From Methylacidiphilum kamchatkense Kam1 (GTDB lineage Bacteria > Verrucomicrobiota > Verrucomicrobiia > Methylacidiphilales > Methylacidiphilaceae): a DNA stretch of 64,000 bases. Position 1 is the first letter of the stretch; every line of letters begins with the position of its first letter. The notes below the pieces were generated by a model, which saw only the letters and a list, made by a program, of their open reading frames with translations, did no database searches and was not told the origin of the DNA. A program made the position numbers and the translations under genes. Positions 54,479-64,000 of the stretch are shown here, one piece after another. The stretch spans positions 1,922,001 through 1,986,000 of the forward strand of contig NZ_CP037899.1 in the NCBI RefSeq assembly GCF_007475525.1, given 5' to 3'.

Positions 54479-55087
54479 ATGACGCTGGCCTCATGGATAA
54501 CCTTGTTTAGAATTGTATCCCTTCCTCTTATACTCTTTTTCCTTAATCAATACCAAAAGAGTGATGAAATAAGCCAACCGGATGAAAAACTGCGGGCAGG
54601 TTCCTTGATTTTTTTTCTAGTTGCCGCCTTTTCTGACTGTATCGATGGGTATTTGGCCAGGAACTGTGGACAAAAAAGCAAGCTAGGAGCCATTCTGGAT
54701 CCGATCGCTGACAAATTACTTCTTTTTGTCATGCTGTTTTCCTTAGCGACCATCAACGCTTCAAAAATAGCTAAAATTCCTTTATGGTTACCTCTTCTAA
54801 TAGCTTCCAGAGATCTTTTCCTTCTTTTTGGTTTTCTTTTTTTAAAAGCCCTACACAAAGAAATGGAAGTTCAGCCGCATTGGACTGGCAAATTGGCTAC
54901 ATTCACAAGTTTTAGCCTAGTGGGTTTTTCTCTGCTTGGAATTGCAAAACTAACCAATATTTCGGTCTATTTGTGTGCGCTTTTCCTTATACTTTCTAGT
55001 ATAGTATATTCTATCAGAGCCATAAAAATTCTACTATCTCAACATCATTCTGTTTCTCCAACTGCAAAAAAAGATAATCTTCTATAG
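54479..55087 (+). CDS. pgsA: CDP-diacylglycerol--glycerol-3-phosphate 3-phosphatidyltransferase
   Basis: Membrane enzyme committing CDP-diacylglycerol to phosphatidylglycerol (202 residues). The CDP-alcohol phosphotransferase motif D-G-x2-A-R-x8-G-x3-D-x3-D is visible as DGYLARN ... GAILDPIADKLL (about residues 60-81). Several hydrophobic helices follow. It lies between gltX and der with very short spacing on both sides, so the three genes may form one transcript. Confidence 0.9.
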   Translation: MTLASWITLFRIVSLPLILFFLNQYQKSDEISQPDEKLRAGSLIFFLVAAFSDCIDGYLARNCGQKSKLGAILDPIADKLLLFVMLFSLATINASKIAKIPLWLPLLIASRDLFLLFGFLFLKALHKEMEVQPHWTGKLATFTSFSLVGFSLLGIAKLTNISVYLCALFLILSSIVYSIRAIKILLSQHHSVSPTAKKDNLL

Positions 55088-55089
55088 GG

Positions 55090-56465
55090 ATGAAAGTCGT
55101 TGCCATTATCGGAAGGCCGAACGTTGGAAAGTCTCTTTTGTTCAATAGGATCTGTTGCAAAGAACTATCCCTGGTCCATGATATCCCAGGGGTCACAAGG
55201 GATCGAATCATTTCTTTTATTCACAGGGATGGGCAAAAAGCAATGGTCATAGATACAGGAGGGTTAGACTTTAATCCAAAAACAAATTTAGAAAAGTCCC
55301 TTTTCGAGCAAATTGAGACTTCTTTAACAGAAGCTACCCATATCCTTTTTGTCGTCGATGGCAGAACTGGACTCACTCCTTTAGATCAAGAAATAGGAAA
55401 ATTTTTAAAGAAAAGGCAAAAGCCAGTCTTTGTTGTCGTCAACAAAATAGATGATCCTAAACTGGAAAATAACACTTTGGACTTTGTTGCACTTGGATTC
55501 GATACCATTTTCCCAGTTTCAGCAGCACATAATAGAGGGATAGAAGAGCTTCTTCGTTCCATCTTTGCGACCAATTCCATTGAGACAGAGCAAAAGGATT
55601 TAAAACTGCCCGCTTCTCCTCCTACCCGCATCGCCGTCATAGGCCAACCCAATGCTGGAAAATCAACGTTGATAAACGGGCTTATTGGAGAAAAAAGGCT
55701 TGTGGTGGACGAACATCCGGGAACAACTCATGACGCTGTGGATGTTGATTTTAGTATCGCTGGCGTTCCTTTCACGCTGATCGATACGGCAGGGCTCAGA
55801 AAAAAAATAAACTGCAACCAGGCTTAGAAAGCAAAATCGCTGGTCGGACTGTACATGCTATAAACCGCTCACATATCGTTTTATTTGTCATTGATGCTGA
55901 AAAAGGAATCAGCCTGCAAGACAAAAAAATTGGTGGATTAATACAAAAGGCATTTCGGCCCTGTATCATTGTCCTCAATAAAATTGATTTGTTAGAGAAT
56001 TCCTTCGATCGGAGAAACTGGGGGAAAGAAAGTCGCCTACTGATACAAAGAGAGCTTCCTTTTTTAAGTTATGCGCCTGTAGTGGCACTCAGTGCTGAAA
56101 AAAAATGGAATTATCAAAGCTTATTCACTGCTATTCTTCTTGTCGACCAGGAAAGAAAAAAATGCATTCCTACCCATGAAGTTGCCGAATTTTTCCAAAG
56201 GACCTTGCATCAATTCCCCCCACAGCCCATTCAAGGTAAAAGATTAAAAATTTACTACGCCACACAACTTAAAGATAAAGACAGTTCAAAAGCGCCTCCT
56301 TGTCCAACATTTGTTCTTTTTGTCAATAATCTCACCTTACTCAAAGCAGCCTATAAAAAATTTCTTGAAGGGAAACTGCGCCAAACTTTTTCCTTTACAG
56401 GTTGTCCCATTTTGTGGAAATGGAAAAAGGCCCAGGGGAAAAAACCACTTCTGATCCAAAAATAG
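55090..56465 (+). pseudogene. der: ribosome biogenesis GTPase Der (EngA), one frameshift
   Basis: Essential double-GTPase in 50S assembly. The first G domain has GRPNVGKSLLFN, DTGG and NKID. The second has GQPNAGKSTLIN and DTAGLRKK, where the frame breaks at a run of eight A at 55800-55807. One added base leads straight into KLQPGLESKIAGRTVHAINR, the NKIDLL motif and the C-terminal KH-like domain. The repaired length is 458 residues, normal for Der. An essential gene intact except for one base in a homopolymer is unlikely to be a real null. Confidence 0.93.
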
Positions 56466-56866: not shown

Positions 56867-59020
56867 ATGCCCTCATCCTCTTTTAAGCCGATCGCACCAT
56901 CCGATGTCAGAGCTATTCTTTCCAGAATGAACCTAGAAGAAAAGATTGGACAGTTGGTTCAATTAAGTCCCAAGGATGGCATGCTATCTGAAGAGCTAAA
57001 AACTCTTATTCAAAAAGGAAAAGTAGGCTCCTTTTTAAACCTAACAGACCCCTCACAAATTGAAGAAGCTCAGCGGATCGCTTCGCATAAAAGCCGTTTG
57101 CACATTCCTTTACTATTTGCATTCGATGTTCTGCATGGTTTTAAAACCATTTTTCCTATCCCGATTGCTTTGGCATCTAGTATGGATGCAGAACTGATTG
57201 AGCAAGTAGCTCGTGCTTCCGCTAAAGAAGCAAGAGCTTTTGGAATTCATTGGACTTTTGCTCCCATGCTTGATGTTTGTCGAGATCCTAGATGGGGAAG
57301 AGTAGCCGAAAGTCCAGGGGAAGACCCTTTTTTAGCCTCTCTCCTTTCATCAGCATGGATCAAAGGGTTTCAAGGCACGAACCTTTCTTCTTCCAGTCTC
57401 CTTGCTGCATGTCCTAAGCATTTTGTCGGTTATGGAGCTGTCGAAGGTGGGAGAGATTACAATTCAGTAACTATATCTTATAGGCTACTTCAAGAAATCT
57501 ATCTTCCTCCATTCCTCCAAGCCTTTAAACAAGGAGCATTTGCAACGATGGCAGCCTTTGTTGCCATTAATGGCTTACCGCCAGCCGCCAATTCACAGTT
57601 GCTAAAAGACTTATTAAGAAAGGACATTGGATGGGAGGGTCCAGTTATCAGCGATTGGAATGCTGTCAGAGAACTGGTCCATCATGGGATTGCTGAAAAT
57701 GAAAAAGCTGCCGTGGCAATAGCCATAAATTCTGGTATTGACATAGATATGGCTAGTGGTCTTTATTCCCAATATTTAGAAGAACTCCTCAAAGAAGGAA
57801 AGGTCAAAGAAGAAACGATTGATGATGCTGTCCAGAGGGTCCTAACCCTTAAAAATAAGCTCGGACTTTTTACCCAAGAGCCACATCCTCTAAAGATAGA
57901 TCAAAATAGATGGCAGACCATTCTTAAGACCAACAAGCAAATAGCTTTGGAAGCAGCCAAAAAATCCGTGGTGTTATTAAAAAATGAAGATGGACTGCTC
58001 CCCATTGCTCCTTCTATTCGCTCTATTGCTCTAATCGGTCCTTTCAGTGAAGAACGCAAAGAACATTTAGGCCCATGGTCTGCCATTGGAGATGGCAATG
58101 AAGTAATAACCCTTGCTGAAGGCCTAAAAAGATATGCTCCTAGGGGAACAAAAATCAACGTGGTTGAAGGCTGCAATAGGTTTCGCCATGGCACGGTGGA
58201 TTATCAGCAAGCCCTCAAAATCGCTCAAAGTAGTCAACTGATAGTCGCAGCGGTGGGAGAAAAAGCAAATATGTCAGGAGAAGCTGCATCGAGAGCTTTT
58301 TTAGACTTTCCAACACAACAGCAGCAGCTTATTGAAGCCTTATTAGAAACCAAAGTCCCAGTTGTCCTCATAGTCTTTAGCGGCAGGCCGCTGGATCTCT
58401 CAAGAATCATTGCCAAAACAAAAGCAATCCTGCAAGCTTGGTTTTTAGGAACAGAAACCGGAGAAGCCTTAGGACAGATACTTTTTGGGCTCTACAATCC
58501 TTCTGGAAAGTTGCCGATCACTTTCCCAAGATCCGTCGGACAGATCCCTATTTATTACGCTCAACTTCCTACCGGTAGACCAGCCAACCGCTCCTTTCCC
58601 TCCAGCCGCTATATCGACCAAAGCACCACCCCCCTTTTCCCTTTTGGTTATGGATTAAGTTATACTACTTTCCATTACAGCTTCCCTACTCTCAATCGTT
58701 CCAGAATCAATTATCATCAAACATTAGAGATCCAGACAGAAATAGAAAATACAGGCACGGTTCCTGGAGAAGAAATCGTACAGCTTTACATTCGTGATCC
58801 AGTAGCTTCCATTTCAAGACCTTTAAAAGAATTAAAAGGAATACAAAGAGTCTTTCTTAACCCTGGAGAAAAACAAAAAATTAAATTTACTATTTCCTCC
58901 GAGGATTTAGCTTTTATAGATTATGAAGGGAAAAGAAAGATTGAACCTGGCCGGTTTTTTCTCTGGGTTGGACCCAATTCAACAGAAGGGAAAAGAGCAC
59001 AGTTTGATCTTATCCCATAA
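56867..59020 (+). CDS. glycoside hydrolase family 3 beta-glucosidase (BglX-like)
   Basis: A 717-residue GH3 enzyme. The N-terminal (beta/alpha)8 domain has PLLFAFDVLHG near residue 81, CPKHFVGYG near 182, and the nucleophile aspartate D263 in VISDWNAV. A second alpha/beta sandwich domain and a fibronectin-III-like C-terminal domain (FPFGYGLSYTTF, then GTVPGEEIVQLYI) follow. It lacks a signal peptide, so it probably acts in the cytoplasm. It may release glucose or another hexose from beta-linked oligosaccharides. No sugar transporter is nearby. Confidence 0.9.
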   Translation: MPSSSFKPIAPSDVRAILSRMNLEEKIGQLVQLSPKDGMLSEELKTLIQKGKVGSFLNLTDPSQIEEAQRIASHKSRLHIPLLFAFDVLHGFKTIFPIPIALASSMDAELIEQVARASAKEARAFGIHWTFAPMLDVCRDPRWGRVAESPGEDPFLASLLSSAWIKGFQGTNLSSSSLLAACPKHFVGYGAVEGGRDYNSVTISYRLLQEIYLPPFLQAFKQGAFATMAAFVAINGLPPAANSQLLKDLLRKDIGWEGPVISDWNAVRELVHHGIAENEKAAVAIAINSGIDIDMASGLYSQYLEELLKEGKVKEETIDDAVQRVLTLKNKLGLFTQEPHPLKIDQNRWQTILKTNKQIALEAAKKSVVLLKNEDGLLPIAPSIRSIALIGPFSEERKEHLGPWSAIGDGNEVITLAEGLKRYAPRGTKINVVEGCNRFRHGTVDYQQALKIAQSSQLIVAAVGEKANMSGEAASRAFLDFPTQQQQLIEALLETKVPVVLIVFSGRPLDLSRIIAKTKAILQAWFLGTETGEALGQILFGLYNPSGKLPITFPRSVGQIPIYYAQLPTGRPANRSFPSSRYIDQSTTPLFPFGYGLSYTTFHYSFPTLNRSRINYHQTLEIQTEIENTGTVPGEEIVQLYIRDPVASISRPLKELKGIQRVFLNPGEKQKIKFTISSEDLAFIDYEGKRKIEPGRFFLWVGPNSTEGKRAQFDLIP

Positions 59021-59263: not shown

Positions 59264-60205
59264 ATGAGACGCTCTGCTTCCCTAGATAGCCCATATGCAA
59301 TCATCGGTAAGAGCCGTTTGGCAGAGGAACTCCGAAGAATGATAGCAATCGCTGCTCTGACTGATCAACCAGTATTGATTTCTGGAGAAACTGGCAGTGG
59401 CAAAGAAATCGTTGCAAAAGCCATTCACTTTAGCAGTTCAAGAGCAATGCACCCTTTTGTTTCCATCCATTGTGCATCCCTTCCCAAAGAATTAGCTGAG
59501 AATGAAATCTTCGGGGCCCATTTTGCTGGTGTAGAATCTCAGAGGACGGTTATGGGACATAAAGGAAAAAAATTAGAGGCCATTGGGGGCACTCTTTTTC
59601 TTGATGGAGTAGAAGAACTGGAAGCTTCTCTCCAATCAAAACTTCTTCGCCTTTTTGAAGAAGAGAAAATCACCAAAGCTAGATCTATTCGGATAATAGC
59701 TTCTAGCAAAGAGACGATTGAAAAAAATATACAAAGTGGACAATTTCGTAAGGATCTTTTCTACCGGTTAAATGTCATTCGCATCCATACACCTCCCCTT
59801 AGAGAAAGAAAAGAAGATATTCCTGATTTAGTCCAATTTTTTATTGCTAAATATGCAAAGGAAAATCCCAAACGGATATCAAAAAAAGCGCTTTCTTTAC
59901 TCTATAGATATCATTGGCCAGGAAATGTCAGGGAATTAGAAAATCTAATTATTCGACTTTGTCTAACTCAGCCAAAAAAGACCATAGAGCCTATGGATAT
60001 TGATCTGCCTTTTAATAATCCACTTGAAATAAAAGAAATCCAAAATCTTTTCAACTTACCTCTTCCGAAAGCCTTAGAAGAACTTGAACAAATGTTCATC
60101 CATAAAGCTCTTGCCGAATGTCCCACTCGCTCGGCTGCCGCTAAAAAACTTGGAATTGTAAGACCCCTGCTTTACGCTAAGTTACGTAAGTACGATATCC
60201 GTTAA
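59264..60205 (+). CDS. sigma-54-type AAA+ regulator lacking the GAFTGA motif
   Basis: A 313-residue AAA+ domain (about residues 10-245) with a Fis-type helix-turn-helix at the end (about 285-313). Walker A GETGSGKE (41-48) and the sensor/arginine-finger stretch FRKDLFYRLNVIR are intact. The sigma-54 contact loop GAFTGA is replaced by GAHFAGV, and Walker B reads TLFLDGV, with glycine where the catalytic glutamate normally stands. There is no N-terminal receiver or sensor domain. It may bind DNA without activating sigma-54, similar to TyrR-like or degenerate activators. acs follows 67 bases later. Confidence 0.88.
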   Translation: MRRSASLDSPYAIIGKSRLAEELRRMIAIAALTDQPVLISGETGSGKEIVAKAIHFSSSRAMHPFVSIHCASLPKELAENEIFGAHFAGVESQRTVMGHKGKKLEAIGGTLFLDGVEELEASLQSKLLRLFEEEKITKARSIRIIASSKETIEKNIQSGQFRKDLFYRLNVIRIHTPPLRERKEDIPDLVQFFIAKYAKENPKRISKKALSLLYRYHWPGNVRELENLIIRLCLTQPKKTIEPMDIDLPFNNPLEIKEIQNLFNLPLPKALEELEQMFIHKALAECPTRSAAAKKLGIVRPLLYAKLRKYDIR

Positions 60206-60272: not shown

Positions 60273-62219
60273 ATGGATTTCATACAAGAAGACAACTCCT
60301 ATTTTCACTCTACTAAAAAAATCTATCCTCCACTTCCATGCTCGCAGAACGATTTAGTCGATTCCATGCAAACGTATTTTACCCTCTACAAAGAATCTAT
60401 TGCTCATCCTGAACTTTTCTGGGAGAAAATAGCCAAAGATATCGACTGGTTCGAACCATGGACTAAAGTTTTCGATGGCCAATTCCCTCATTGTCAGTGG
60501 TTTTGTGGAGGCAAACTTAATGCAGCTTATAATTGTTTAGATAGGCATTTAAGCGGAAATAGAAAACATAAGACTGCCATACTCTGGGAAGGAGAATTTG
60601 GAGAAAGGATTTCTTACACTTATCAAGAGTTAAGTCAAGAAGTGGCTAGATATGCCAATGTCTTAAGAAGGCATGGAGTCAACTGCTCAGATACGGTGAT
60701 CATTTTCATGCCTTTAATCCCCCAAGCGATCATCACTATGCTTGCGTGTGCACGTATTGGCGCTATTCACAGCGTCGTCTTTGCTGGATTTAGTGCAAAG
60801 TCACTCCTTGAACGAATAGTTGATAGTGGAGCCAAGATCATTGTTAGCGCCGATGGTGGCTTTCGGAGAGGCAAAATCATTCCTTTAAAAGAGCGTGTGG
60901 ACGAAGCGCTTAAACACAGCTCACAAGTTCAAAAAGTCCTTCTTTTTAAAAGGACAGGGGCCCCCATTGGGTGGTGCCATGGCAGAGACTATTGGATGGA
61001 AGAAGAAGCTAGTTTGGTTGAAACTACTTGCGAGCCGGTTCCCTTAGACAGTGAGCATCCCCTCTTCATTCTTTATACCAGTGGCACGACCGGAAAACCA
61101 AAAGGGGTTGTCCATTCCACCGGAGGCTATTTGGTTCAAACGGCTTTCAGTTCGAAGATTGTATTTGATCTACAAGAAGAGGATTTATACTGGTGCACGG
61201 CCGATATTGGGTGGATTACTGGCCATAGCTACGTCGTCTATGGTCTGCTAGCTAACGGAGCATCCGTTTTCATTTATGAAGGAGCTCCCGATTTTCCTTC
61301 TTACGACCGATTTTGGCAGCTAATCGAAAAATACAAGATCACTATATTCTATACCTCTCCCACCGCGATCCGATCCTTTATCAAGTGGGGGACCCAATGG
61401 ATAGAAAAACATGATCTCTCTTCCTTAAGAATATTGGGCAGTGTCGGAGAACCTATTAATCCCGATGTATTTTTATGGTTCTACAAAAATATTGGCAAAG
61501 AAAAATGTCCCATCGTAGACACATGGTGGCAAACGGAAACAGGGTCTATTTTGATATCCCCTCTGCCCAAGGTTACCCCAATGAAACCTGGTTCAGCCAC
61601 TTTTCCACTTTTTGGAATAGAACCTGAGGTCGTTGATGAAAAAGGGGAGCCCATGCCTGCTGGGAAAAATGGGTTGTTGGTCATAAAAAAACCATGGCCT
61701 TCGATGTTAAGAGGCATCTATGGGGATGAGGAGAGTTTCAAAAAAATTTACTTCAGTAGAATCCCAGGAGTATACTTTACAGGGGATGGAGCGTATAAAG
61801 ATAAAGAAGGTTATTTCTGGATTATAGGCAGAATCGATGATGTGATCAATGTCTCAGGACATCGCATTGGATCTGCTGAATTAGAAAGCGCACTCATTAG
61901 TCATCCAGCAGTTGCTGAAGCTGCAGTCATTGGAGTCCCTGATCCAGAAAAAGGAGAGGCTCTTATAGCCTACGTAACACTCAAAGAAGGATGGACTTCG
62001 TCATTGGACTTAGAGAATGCTTTAAAGGAACATGTTGTAAAAGAGATAGGCTCTATAGCAAGACCAAAGGAAATTCGATTCATTGATGCATTACCTAAGA
62101 CTCGAAGTGGCAAAATTGTTCGCAGACTTCTAAAAGAAATCAGTCGTGAGGGGCATATTTCAGGAGATATAACCACGCTAGAAGATAGCCAGTGTTTAGA
62201 TAAGCTAATAAAAGGCTAA
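60273..62219 (+). CDS. acs: acetyl-CoA synthetase
   Basis: AMP-forming ligase making acetyl-CoA from acetate (648 residues). The P-loop-like motif YTSGTTGKPKGV, the TWWQTETG motif, the hinge IGRIDDVINVSGHRI and the catalytic lysine in RSGKIVRRLL are present. The lysine near the end is the usual acetylation site. Full length indicates an acetyl-CoA synthetase rather than a shorter acyl-CoA ligase. It directly follows the AAA+ regulator. Confidence 0.95.
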   Translation: MDFIQEDNSYFHSTKKIYPPLPCSQNDLVDSMQTYFTLYKESIAHPELFWEKIAKDIDWFEPWTKVFDGQFPHCQWFCGGKLNAAYNCLDRHLSGNRKHKTAILWEGEFGERISYTYQELSQEVARYANVLRRHGVNCSDTVIIFMPLIPQAIITMLACARIGAIHSVVFAGFSAKSLLERIVDSGAKIIVSADGGFRRGKIIPLKERVDEALKHSSQVQKVLLFKRTGAPIGWCHGRDYWMEEEASLVETTCEPVPLDSEHPLFILYTSGTTGKPKGVVHSTGGYLVQTAFSSKIVFDLQEEDLYWCTADIGWITGHSYVVYGLLANGASVFIYEGAPDFPSYDRFWQLIEKYKITIFYTSPTAIRSFIKWGTQWIEKHDLSSLRILGSVGEPINPDVFLWFYKNIGKEKCPIVDTWWQTETGSILISPLPKVTPMKPGSATFPLFGIEPEVVDEKGEPMPAGKNGLLVIKKPWPSMLRGIYGDEESFKKIYFSRIPGVYFTGDGAYKDKEGYFWIIGRIDDVINVSGHRIGSAELESALISHPAVAEAAVIGVPDPEKGEALIAYVTLKEGWTSSLDLENALKEHVVKEIGSIARPKEIRFIDALPKTRSGKIVRRLLKEISREGHISGDITTLEDSQCLDKLIKG

Positions 62220-62858: not shown

Positions 62859-63605
62859 TTATATCCTCTTACCTTTGAGATAGATCGGCTTTGCGAAAAA
62901 ATAGCCCATATACCACCAGATAAAATACATAATGATAGATATAAACCCAGAAAAGAAAGCGGAGACTCCAAGCACGCCGCCAGCAAAGCTCCTCATTGTT
63001 CCAGTTTCTACCATTCTTAAATATTCAGGTGTTGAGGTTCGAATATACTGGTATTGAATAAGATCAGCCACACTGAGGAGTTGCCCTTCCCACAGGACAG
63101 GCACATGGTATGGCGCAATCATAGGCCAATTTGACGGATAAAAAAGCAGCCCCCATAACTCTCCACCCACTAAGGCAGTCACAACAAAGTTATTTGTAGT
63201 CATTAAGATCCCATCTAAAACAATCGCTTGCGGCAGCAATGTCTCAGGAAAGACCAAATTAATAGGAAACTTAGCCCATGCCCAAAAATTAATAATCCGA
63301 TTCAACCATTGTCCAAGCAAAAGGCCAAAGCATACCATAGTCGCCCCTGCAGGGAATTTCCAATGAGTCCATAAAGCTGCTTGGACGGCAGCAGGAAAAC
63401 AGATAGTCGCAATTGGAACTATGACTGGCCACCACATCCTATCTTTTAAATCGATCCAAAAAGACCAGTCTCCAGCAAAGAGTTGTTGATGAATCCAAGC
63501 AGCTGCTACAGTTGCAAGAAAAATGATCAAAAGGACAGCCAAATCAAAGCGTTTCCTGACAAAATCTGCTTCGATTTCCCTCTGAGTCAAGAGTTGCTCA
63601 TTCAT
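62859..63605 (-). CDS. pmoA: particulate methane monooxygenase subunit A (membrane subunit)
   Basis: PmoA/AmoA-type integral membrane subunit of 248 residues. Membrane helices are evident throughout. Landmarks are the DLKDRMWWPV stretch, the NFWAWAKFPINLVFPE segment, LDGILM and WGLLFYPSNWP, matching the verrucomicrobial type more than proteobacterial PmoA. The start is ATG 63605. It is 53 bases after pmoC on the same strand. A pmoB gene does not follow: the next genes on the left are on the other strand. The complex oxidises methane to methanol in the membrane. Confidence 0.95.
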   Translation of the reverse strand: MNEQLLTQREIEADFVRKRFDLAVLLIIFLATVAAAWIHQQLFAGDWSFWIDLKDRMWWPVIVPIATICFPAAVQAALWTHWKFPAGATMVCFGLLLGQWLNRIINFWAWAKFPINLVFPETLLPQAIVLDGILMTTNNFVVTALVGGELWGLLFYPSNWPMIAPYHVPVLWEGQLLSVADLIQYQYIRTSTPEYLRMVETGTMRSFAGGVLGVSAFFSGFISIIMYFIWWYMGYFFAKPIYLKGKRI

Positions 63606-63658
63606 ATTGGAGATTCCCTCTTCCTTCCTTCCTTCTTAATTGCTATTTTTCACCCTTT

Positions 63659-64000
63659 TTATTTATTCGGAAGAATGTTCTTCTCACAAGAACAGAATAA
63701 GGGATTAATACAAGCCTCAGGATTTTCTATAACAGTCGAGGCGCTAGGTACCTCTGCCCCTAAATAAACTTGATCGATTAGACTATAGACTCTTGGACAT
63801 ACCGTTACTAAGACTCCATATAGAGACAACGCCCCCCAAGCAAAAATTGCAAAACCCCAATGGAGTGGTGCAGAAAAGACCTCTTCCATGAACCAACGCG
63901 TATGACCAAATTCATTAAGACCAACGTTGGGGAATATCATTAAAGGAGAAGCCACTAAAATAACTAATGGAAGGGAGGTAGCTTTTGCAAATTGAGGTAA
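63659..64000 (-). CDS. pmoC: particulate methane monooxygenase subunit C, 3' part
   Basis: C-terminal 113 codons of a PmoC gene that continues beyond the right edge. The frame stays open from 64000 down to the stop at 63659. NEFGHTRWFMEE and APLHWGFAIF are the conserved final membrane region, followed by a C-terminal tail with three cysteines. The catalytic Cu-D ligands (Asp/His/His) lie upstream, outside the window. pmoA follows after 53 bases, the usual pmoC-pmoA order. Confidence 0.93.
   Translation of the reverse strand, partial: LPQFAKATSLPLVILVASPLMIFPNVGLNEFGHTRWFMEEVFSAPLHWGFAIFAWGALSLYGVLVTVCPRVYSLIDQVYLGAEVPSASTVIENPEACINPLFCSCEKNILPNK

Follow-up and report, generated by a model that had tools for sequence, protein, structure and literature searches.

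In AAA+ regulators of the NtrC/PspF type, the loops L1 and L2 touch the -12/-11 promoter DNA as well as sigma-54, and the glutamate of Walker B serves as a glutamate switch (PMC7175178; this and the other papers are cited from excerpts). Loss of the GAFTGA motif of L1 is already known from TyrR, HupR, VpsR and the NtrC of Caulobacter. TyrR, DhaR and HupR are described as EBP paralogs without sigma-54 interaction, for which a shift to sigma-70 promoters is documented; the same shift has been argued on sequence for VpsR and YplP, and a count from 2011 gave about 110 deviating homologs (PMC3162934, excerpt). The NtrC proteins of Caulobacter and Rhodobacter capsulatus are likewise GAFTGA-less and are reported to act at sigma-70 promoters. 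The source for this states that the protein of R. capsulatus needs ATP binding and not hydrolysis, that the one of Caulobacter depends on residues of Walker A as well as of Walker B, and that VpsR regulates sigma-70 promoters without a need for ATP (PMC10274813). The protein described here appears to extend this group: we consider it fairly probable, judging from its sequence, that it binds DNA as a local, sigma-54-independent regulator of a sigma-70-type promoter, that its AAA+ core no longer serves as a motor, and that it probably acts on the adjacent acs gene.

The gene lies within a window (the whole stretch of DNA analysed) of 64,000 nucleotides, which covers positions 1922001-1986000 of the 2,202,032-base single-contig genome of Methylacidiphilum kamchatkense Kam1 (G000:C1). 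Bacteria of the Methylacidiphilum type live on methane and thrive in heat and acid. Pfam identified the sigma-54 interaction AAA+ domain (PF00158) at residues 13-175 (E 3e-41), together with an AAA+ lid (PF25601) and a Fis-type HTH_8 domain (PF02954); Pfam found no domain, and in particular no receiver, ahead of the AAA+ core. An AlphaFold2 model computed from a 53-row alignment (mean pLDDT 83.5, pTM 0.69) places the helices and strands of the AAA+ core and of the helix-turn-helix with confidence, while residues 86-99, which correspond to the L1 replacement, have confidence values below 50. The closest solved structures in a fold search are those of NtrX, FleQ, VpsR and NtrC1. The features discussed below are collected in Table 1.

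Table 1. Features of the regulator and its conserved neighbours, in window coordinates.
Feature	Position	Strand	Basis
Degenerate NtrC/PspF-type AAA+ regulator, 313 aa, without N-terminal regulatory domain	59264..60205	+	ORF, Pfam, orthologs
Walker A (residues 41-48), GETGSGKE without variation in 5/5 orthologs	59384..59407	+	ortholog comparison
L1 region, residues 84-103, GAFTGA overwritten, predicted disordered at 86-99	59513..59572	+	alignment, AlphaFold2
Walker B Asp114-Gly115, DG instead of DE	59603..59608	+	sequence, ortholog comparison
L2 / pre-sensor-1 region between residues 130 and 143, shortened to 12 residues (vs 18-19)	59654..59689	+	alignment
Sensor I Ser148-Lys149 replacing Thr-Asn; Lys in 5/5 orthologs	59705..59710	+	alignment
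Arginine fingers R162 and R168, retained by 5/5 orthologs	59747..59767	+	ortholog comparison
Region of the Fis-type helix-turn-helix (residues 267-313), the best-conserved part	60062..60202	+	Pfam, ortholog comparison
acs (acetyl-CoA synthetase), conserved neighbour on the downstream side; same strand, gap of 67 bp	60273..62219	+	ORF list, gene order
GH3 glycosidase; conserved upstream neighbour	56867..59020	+	gene order

All 13 genomes available for the family were searched with a profile built from the five orthologs. The search returned 73 matches, five of them at 618-667 bits and the next best at 253 bits. These five represent one ortholog in each of the five genomes of the genus (one belongs to Methylacidiphilum sp. 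Yel, L042), with an intact open reading frame in every case; the profile found no ortholog in the eight genomes of the family's other two genera. Four matches passed E 1e-80 in a draw of 387 genomes from the phylum, in which at most five candidates were scored per genome among the genomes listed, and all four are in the genus Methylacidiphilum. The fifth genome of the genus is not among these matches and is taken as not drawn.

We compared the five orthologs with 127 other EBP-like proteins from loci L001-L136, mostly the query's own best relatives, which include paralogs and near-duplicates and are not mutually independent, so that the counts given here are descriptive. K47, D114, R162, R168 and the sensor II arginine R223 are retained in all five orthologs. 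A GAFTGA-like string is absent from L1 in all five; the window protein has EIFGAHFAGVESQRTVMGHKGKK where ELFGHExGAFTGA would be expected. The loop measures 16 residues in every ortholog versus 13-15, mostly 14, in the comparison proteins, 114 of which have GxFTGx and 13 of which have recognisable variants (GAFSGA, GSYTGA, GAFTHA). L2 is 12-13 residues long in the orthologs, about six residues short of the 18-19 found in 127/127 others, and the lysine at the sensor I asparagine position recurs in just one of the 127. The Walker B string of the window protein is TLFLDG; its glutamate is replaced by glycine in three of the five orthologs (window, G004 and G001), whereas DE is retained in G002 and G003 and the glutamate is present in all 127 comparison proteins. 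The aspartate between the arginine fingers (D164) is glutamate in G002 and G003 versus aspartate in 127/127 others. All five orthologs have histidine at the switch-asparagine position, and so do 16 of the 127 relatives, one of them a GAFTGA-carrying protein of the same genome; this residue is therefore not diagnostic.

Taken together, the motif pattern in the five orthologs indicates that the parts for nucleotide binding and ring assembly are kept, and that the parts leading from hydrolysis to the push on sigma-54 are lost or altered. Among the marks of a working activator, PF00158 is present, and GAFTGA, an L2 of normal length and the Walker B DE are missing (DE is kept in G002 and G003). The protein has the composition of the GAFTGA-less EBP paralogs, namely an EBP core and a Fis-type helix-turn-helix with GAFTGA lost.

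An earlier note, made from the letters of the window, had reported that GAFTGA is replaced in L1 and that the Walker B glutamate is glycine. The first observation extends to all five orthologs; the second is correct for the window, G004 and G001 and does not apply genus-wide. Sequence errors, which the note had named as a way in which these motifs could prove false, are ruled out, as is chance: DG occurs in three separately assembled genomes and GAFTGA is lost in five orthologs. The shortened L2, the change of the sensor I asparagine to lysine and the restriction of DG to part of the genus go beyond that note. Its suggestion that contact with sigma-54 is unlikely is well supported, with both polymerase-facing loops altered in all five orthologs. 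It had also proposed ATP binding without hydrolysis, which is plausible within the window's clade because all binding residues checked are kept there and the catalytic glutamate is lost: this protein probably binds ATP and would hardly hydrolyse it. The orthologs of G002 and G003, with DE kept, may still hydrolyse ATP, so that an absence of hydrolysis does not characterise the family as a whole.

The same genome encodes rpoN (E 8.6e-59) and six canonical activators with GAFTGA-type loops, so the regulator's losses did not follow from a loss of sigma-54. Genome-wide, sigma-54 sites exceed the control (85 vs 14 for the reversed pattern), and within the window they are at chance level (44 vs 40.0 expected). 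No -24/-12 site within one mismatch was found near the regulator gene or acs in the genome-wide search; the nearest sites lie around position 54,677 of the window and past its end. These data bear on the idea that the protein still activates the sigma-54 polymerase by means of a re-evolved L1 loop. Such a loop would agree with the presence of rpoN and with an L1 that has not been deleted, is longer than usual and is conserved within the clade. However, L1 is nearly unalignable between the two ortholog clades, L2 is short too, the Walker B glutamate is gone in three of the five orthologs, a suitable site is missing nearby, and single changes in GAFTGA mostly abolish activity (PMC3162934, excerpt), and we regard continued activation of this kind as very unlikely.

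We also estimated selection on the gene. Within the window's clade, where dN/dS is quoted because dS is saturated across clades, whole-gene values are 0.064 (own-G004), 0.115 (own-G001) and 0.074 (G004-G001), compared with 0.086 for acs (own-G004) and 0.162 for GH3. Between the window protein and its G002 ortholog, the helix-turn-helix has 4 nonsynonymous versus 25 synonymous differences over 47 codons, and L1 has 20.3 versus 11.7 over 21 codons. Conservation tests for L1, which rest on small counts in chosen segments that take in a few anchor residues, gave Fisher p 0.0002 for own-G004 (2 nonsynonymous, 7 synonymous differences), p 0.02 for own-G001 and p 0.00003 for G004-G001 within the clade, and p 0.005, 0.08 and 0.14 between clades. 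The overwritten L1 is thus conserved within the window's clade and is not free-running debris. The stepwise loss of catalytic and loop motifs could also suggest a decaying pseudogene without remaining function, but the frame is open in all five genomes, the helix-turn-helix is near-invariant, gene order is conserved, and dN/dS of 0.06-0.12 shows that the gene is not decaying. Selection contradicts this explanation, and we give it hardly any credence.

In a tree of 67 proteins the five orthologs form one clade (SH-aLRT 100), which splits into G002 plus G003 (97) and the window protein plus G004 and G001 (96). The clade is nested (98) in a receiver-containing canonical group that comprises a paralog from the same genome (G000:C1:1132532-1133470), proteins from a different genus within the family and proteins of Nitrosospira. 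Because this is a quick tree with a long stem (1.33), the exact parent is provisional and the join to this subfamily could be a long-branch artefact. The paralog carries a receiver domain, and both it and one Nitrosospira protein adjoin an ORF that resembles a histidine kinase, the kinase being read by eye. Since the loop loss is common to both ortholog clades and DE is kept in one of them, parsimony places the loss of the loops first and that of the glutamate later, in one clade.

Two of the nearest receiver-bearing relatives each belong to a pair of histidine kinase and response regulator, at L137:5112-7486 in this genome and at L043:2184-4951 in Nitrosospira, an ammonia oxidiser.

A canonical activator such as the nearest paralog, the response regulator L137:6152-7486, could in principle take the protein into mixed rings as an inert or modulatory subunit, which would supply arginine fingers in trans and no GAFTGA loop and would damp or retune sigma-54 activation. 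This would be in keeping with the retention of arginine fingers and Walker A in all five orthologs despite the loss of the Walker B glutamate in three, and with the availability of the six canonical activators and rpoN. We nevertheless think it unlikely, given that identity to the nearest-scoring own paralog is only about 41%, that the gene adjoins acs and not a canonical activator, and that its helix-turn-helix is different and is also the most conserved part, which argues for a DNA target of its own.

Turning to the known families, TyrR, DhaR and HupR have different or additional N-terminal domains. The protein scores 196 bits against the NCBIfam model of TyrR (cut-off 576), 192 against that of DhaR (551), and 175 and 137 against those of PspF (443.55 and 529); no model in the comparison listing, which is without a HupR model, reaches its cut-off. 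The scores are under the curated cut-offs, and the protein is rejected as a TyrR, DhaR or PspF equivalog. The earlier note had proposed a comparison with the TyrR family; by anatomy, with no N-terminal domain and no listed model at cut-off, the protein is not of the TyrR type. Like this protein, PspF and other EBPs without an N-terminal domain consist of just an AAA+ core and a helix-turn-helix; PspF is an active sigma-54 ATPase, unlike our reading of this protein. The NtrC proteins of Caulobacter and R. capsulatus are similar in having an NtrC-type AAA+ core and a helix-turn-helix with GAFTGA lost. They keep a receiver, however, and have lost part of L1 (eight residues in Caulobacter). In the present protein the receiver is missing, L1 has been overwritten and is longer by about two residues, L2 is short, and one clade is without the Walker B glutamate. 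GAFTGA is also missing from VpsR of Vibrio cholerae, whose entry 7v2b is among the top fold matches; VpsR binds c-di-GMP, according to the title of that entry, and has a conserved aspartyl phosphorylation site for phosphate sensing (PMC10274813, excerpt), while the regulator has no domain before its AAA+ core. In the parts of the open-licence literature available to us we found no paper on this protein, and in that literature no description of the combination of a missing N-terminal domain, two changed loops and a lost glutamate, nor of a stepwise series of losses within one genus. The protein may be among the homologs counted in 2011.

The order GH3 - regulator - acs is held in all four genomes with contig past the gene (window, G004, G002 and G003). 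The contig of G001, the Yel genome (L122, G001:C41), ends about 0.14 kb past the regulator gene; just 3' of the gene its sequence stops matching the other genomes, perhaps at a repeat or an insertion. The earlier note had pointed to the proximity of both acs and pmoCA. Both are present in the window, and the conserved order backs the link with acs, while the link with pmoCA is local. Other nearby genes on the GH3/acs side are conserved neighbours as well, and pmoCA is not: it adjoins acs in the window (62859-63955, minus strand), and in G004, G002 and G003, the three other genomes with sequence past acs, the fetched stretches show no pmoCA next to the ortholog. The pmo cluster therefore seems variably placed, and we rejected pmoCA as a conserved partner.

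The 67-bp gap on the same strand, with no terminator-like site found on that strand by the scan, makes a transcript shared with acs possible. In the five genomes, the regions ahead of the regulator gene, acs and GH3 were searched for a shared palindrome, which returned only short matches, A/T-rich or in the coding end of GH3. From one clade to the other, intergenic and upstream sequences can be aligned only poorly. Scans for promoter-like and terminator-like sites stayed close to chance (3 vs 2.9 and 2 vs 1.2 expected). The conserved order points to acs as the likeliest target, and such an order could persist without a regulatory link. In M. fumariolicum SolV, acs (Mfumv2_2288) is the proposed entry for acetate from ethane, and the excerpt of the same study reports no upregulation pointing to further oxidation (PMC7768010); this result neither supports nor excludes an action of the regulator on acs.

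Based on these observations, we suggest that a sigma-54-independent local regulator could have arisen as follows. The ancestor would have been a receiver-containing response regulator of the NtrC type that lost its receiver domain. Both sigma-54-pushing loops, L1 with GAFTGA and L2, would likewise have been lost and later, in one clade, the catalytic Walker B glutamate. What remained would be an AAA+ core that binds ATP and has its arginine fingers, serving as a module for assembly or nucleotide sensing and no longer as a motor, together with a Fis-type DNA-binding domain. Its target would probably be the adjacent acs and perhaps its own gene, where it could be a repressor or an activator; a role as repressor or co-regulator, which the earlier note had considered, fits the near-invariant helix-turn-helix. 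Without an N-terminal domain, candidate signals would be the nucleotide state or a partner protein. It is conceivable, if rather unlikely, that the AAA+ motor was rebuilt within this one genus into a DNA-bound nucleotide switch, which would read ATP/ADP via Walker A, the arginine fingers and sensor II, set occupancy at acs directly and use the new L1 as a partner surface. If so, acetate activation, an ATP-spending step, would be tied to the energy state of the cell.

The steps of loss are traceable in a single genus, with both loops changed in all five genomes, the glutamate then lost in one clade and the DNA-binding part nearly unchanged. This is a natural series for asking what an AAA+ regulator does once sigma-54 is no longer driven. 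For acetyl-CoA synthetase of verrucomicrobial methanotrophs, the protein is a candidate regulator, and labelling its gene automatically as a sigma-54 dependent regulator would be wrong.

Elsewhere in the window, a housekeeping GTPase gene, which we take to be der (engA), is split by a frameshift into 55090-55827 and 55989-56465, while G001 and G004 carry it as one intact 458-aa ORF. The frameshift is likely an assembly error; a suspected assembly error in hyhL is reported in the Kam1 paper (PMC6688271, excerpt).
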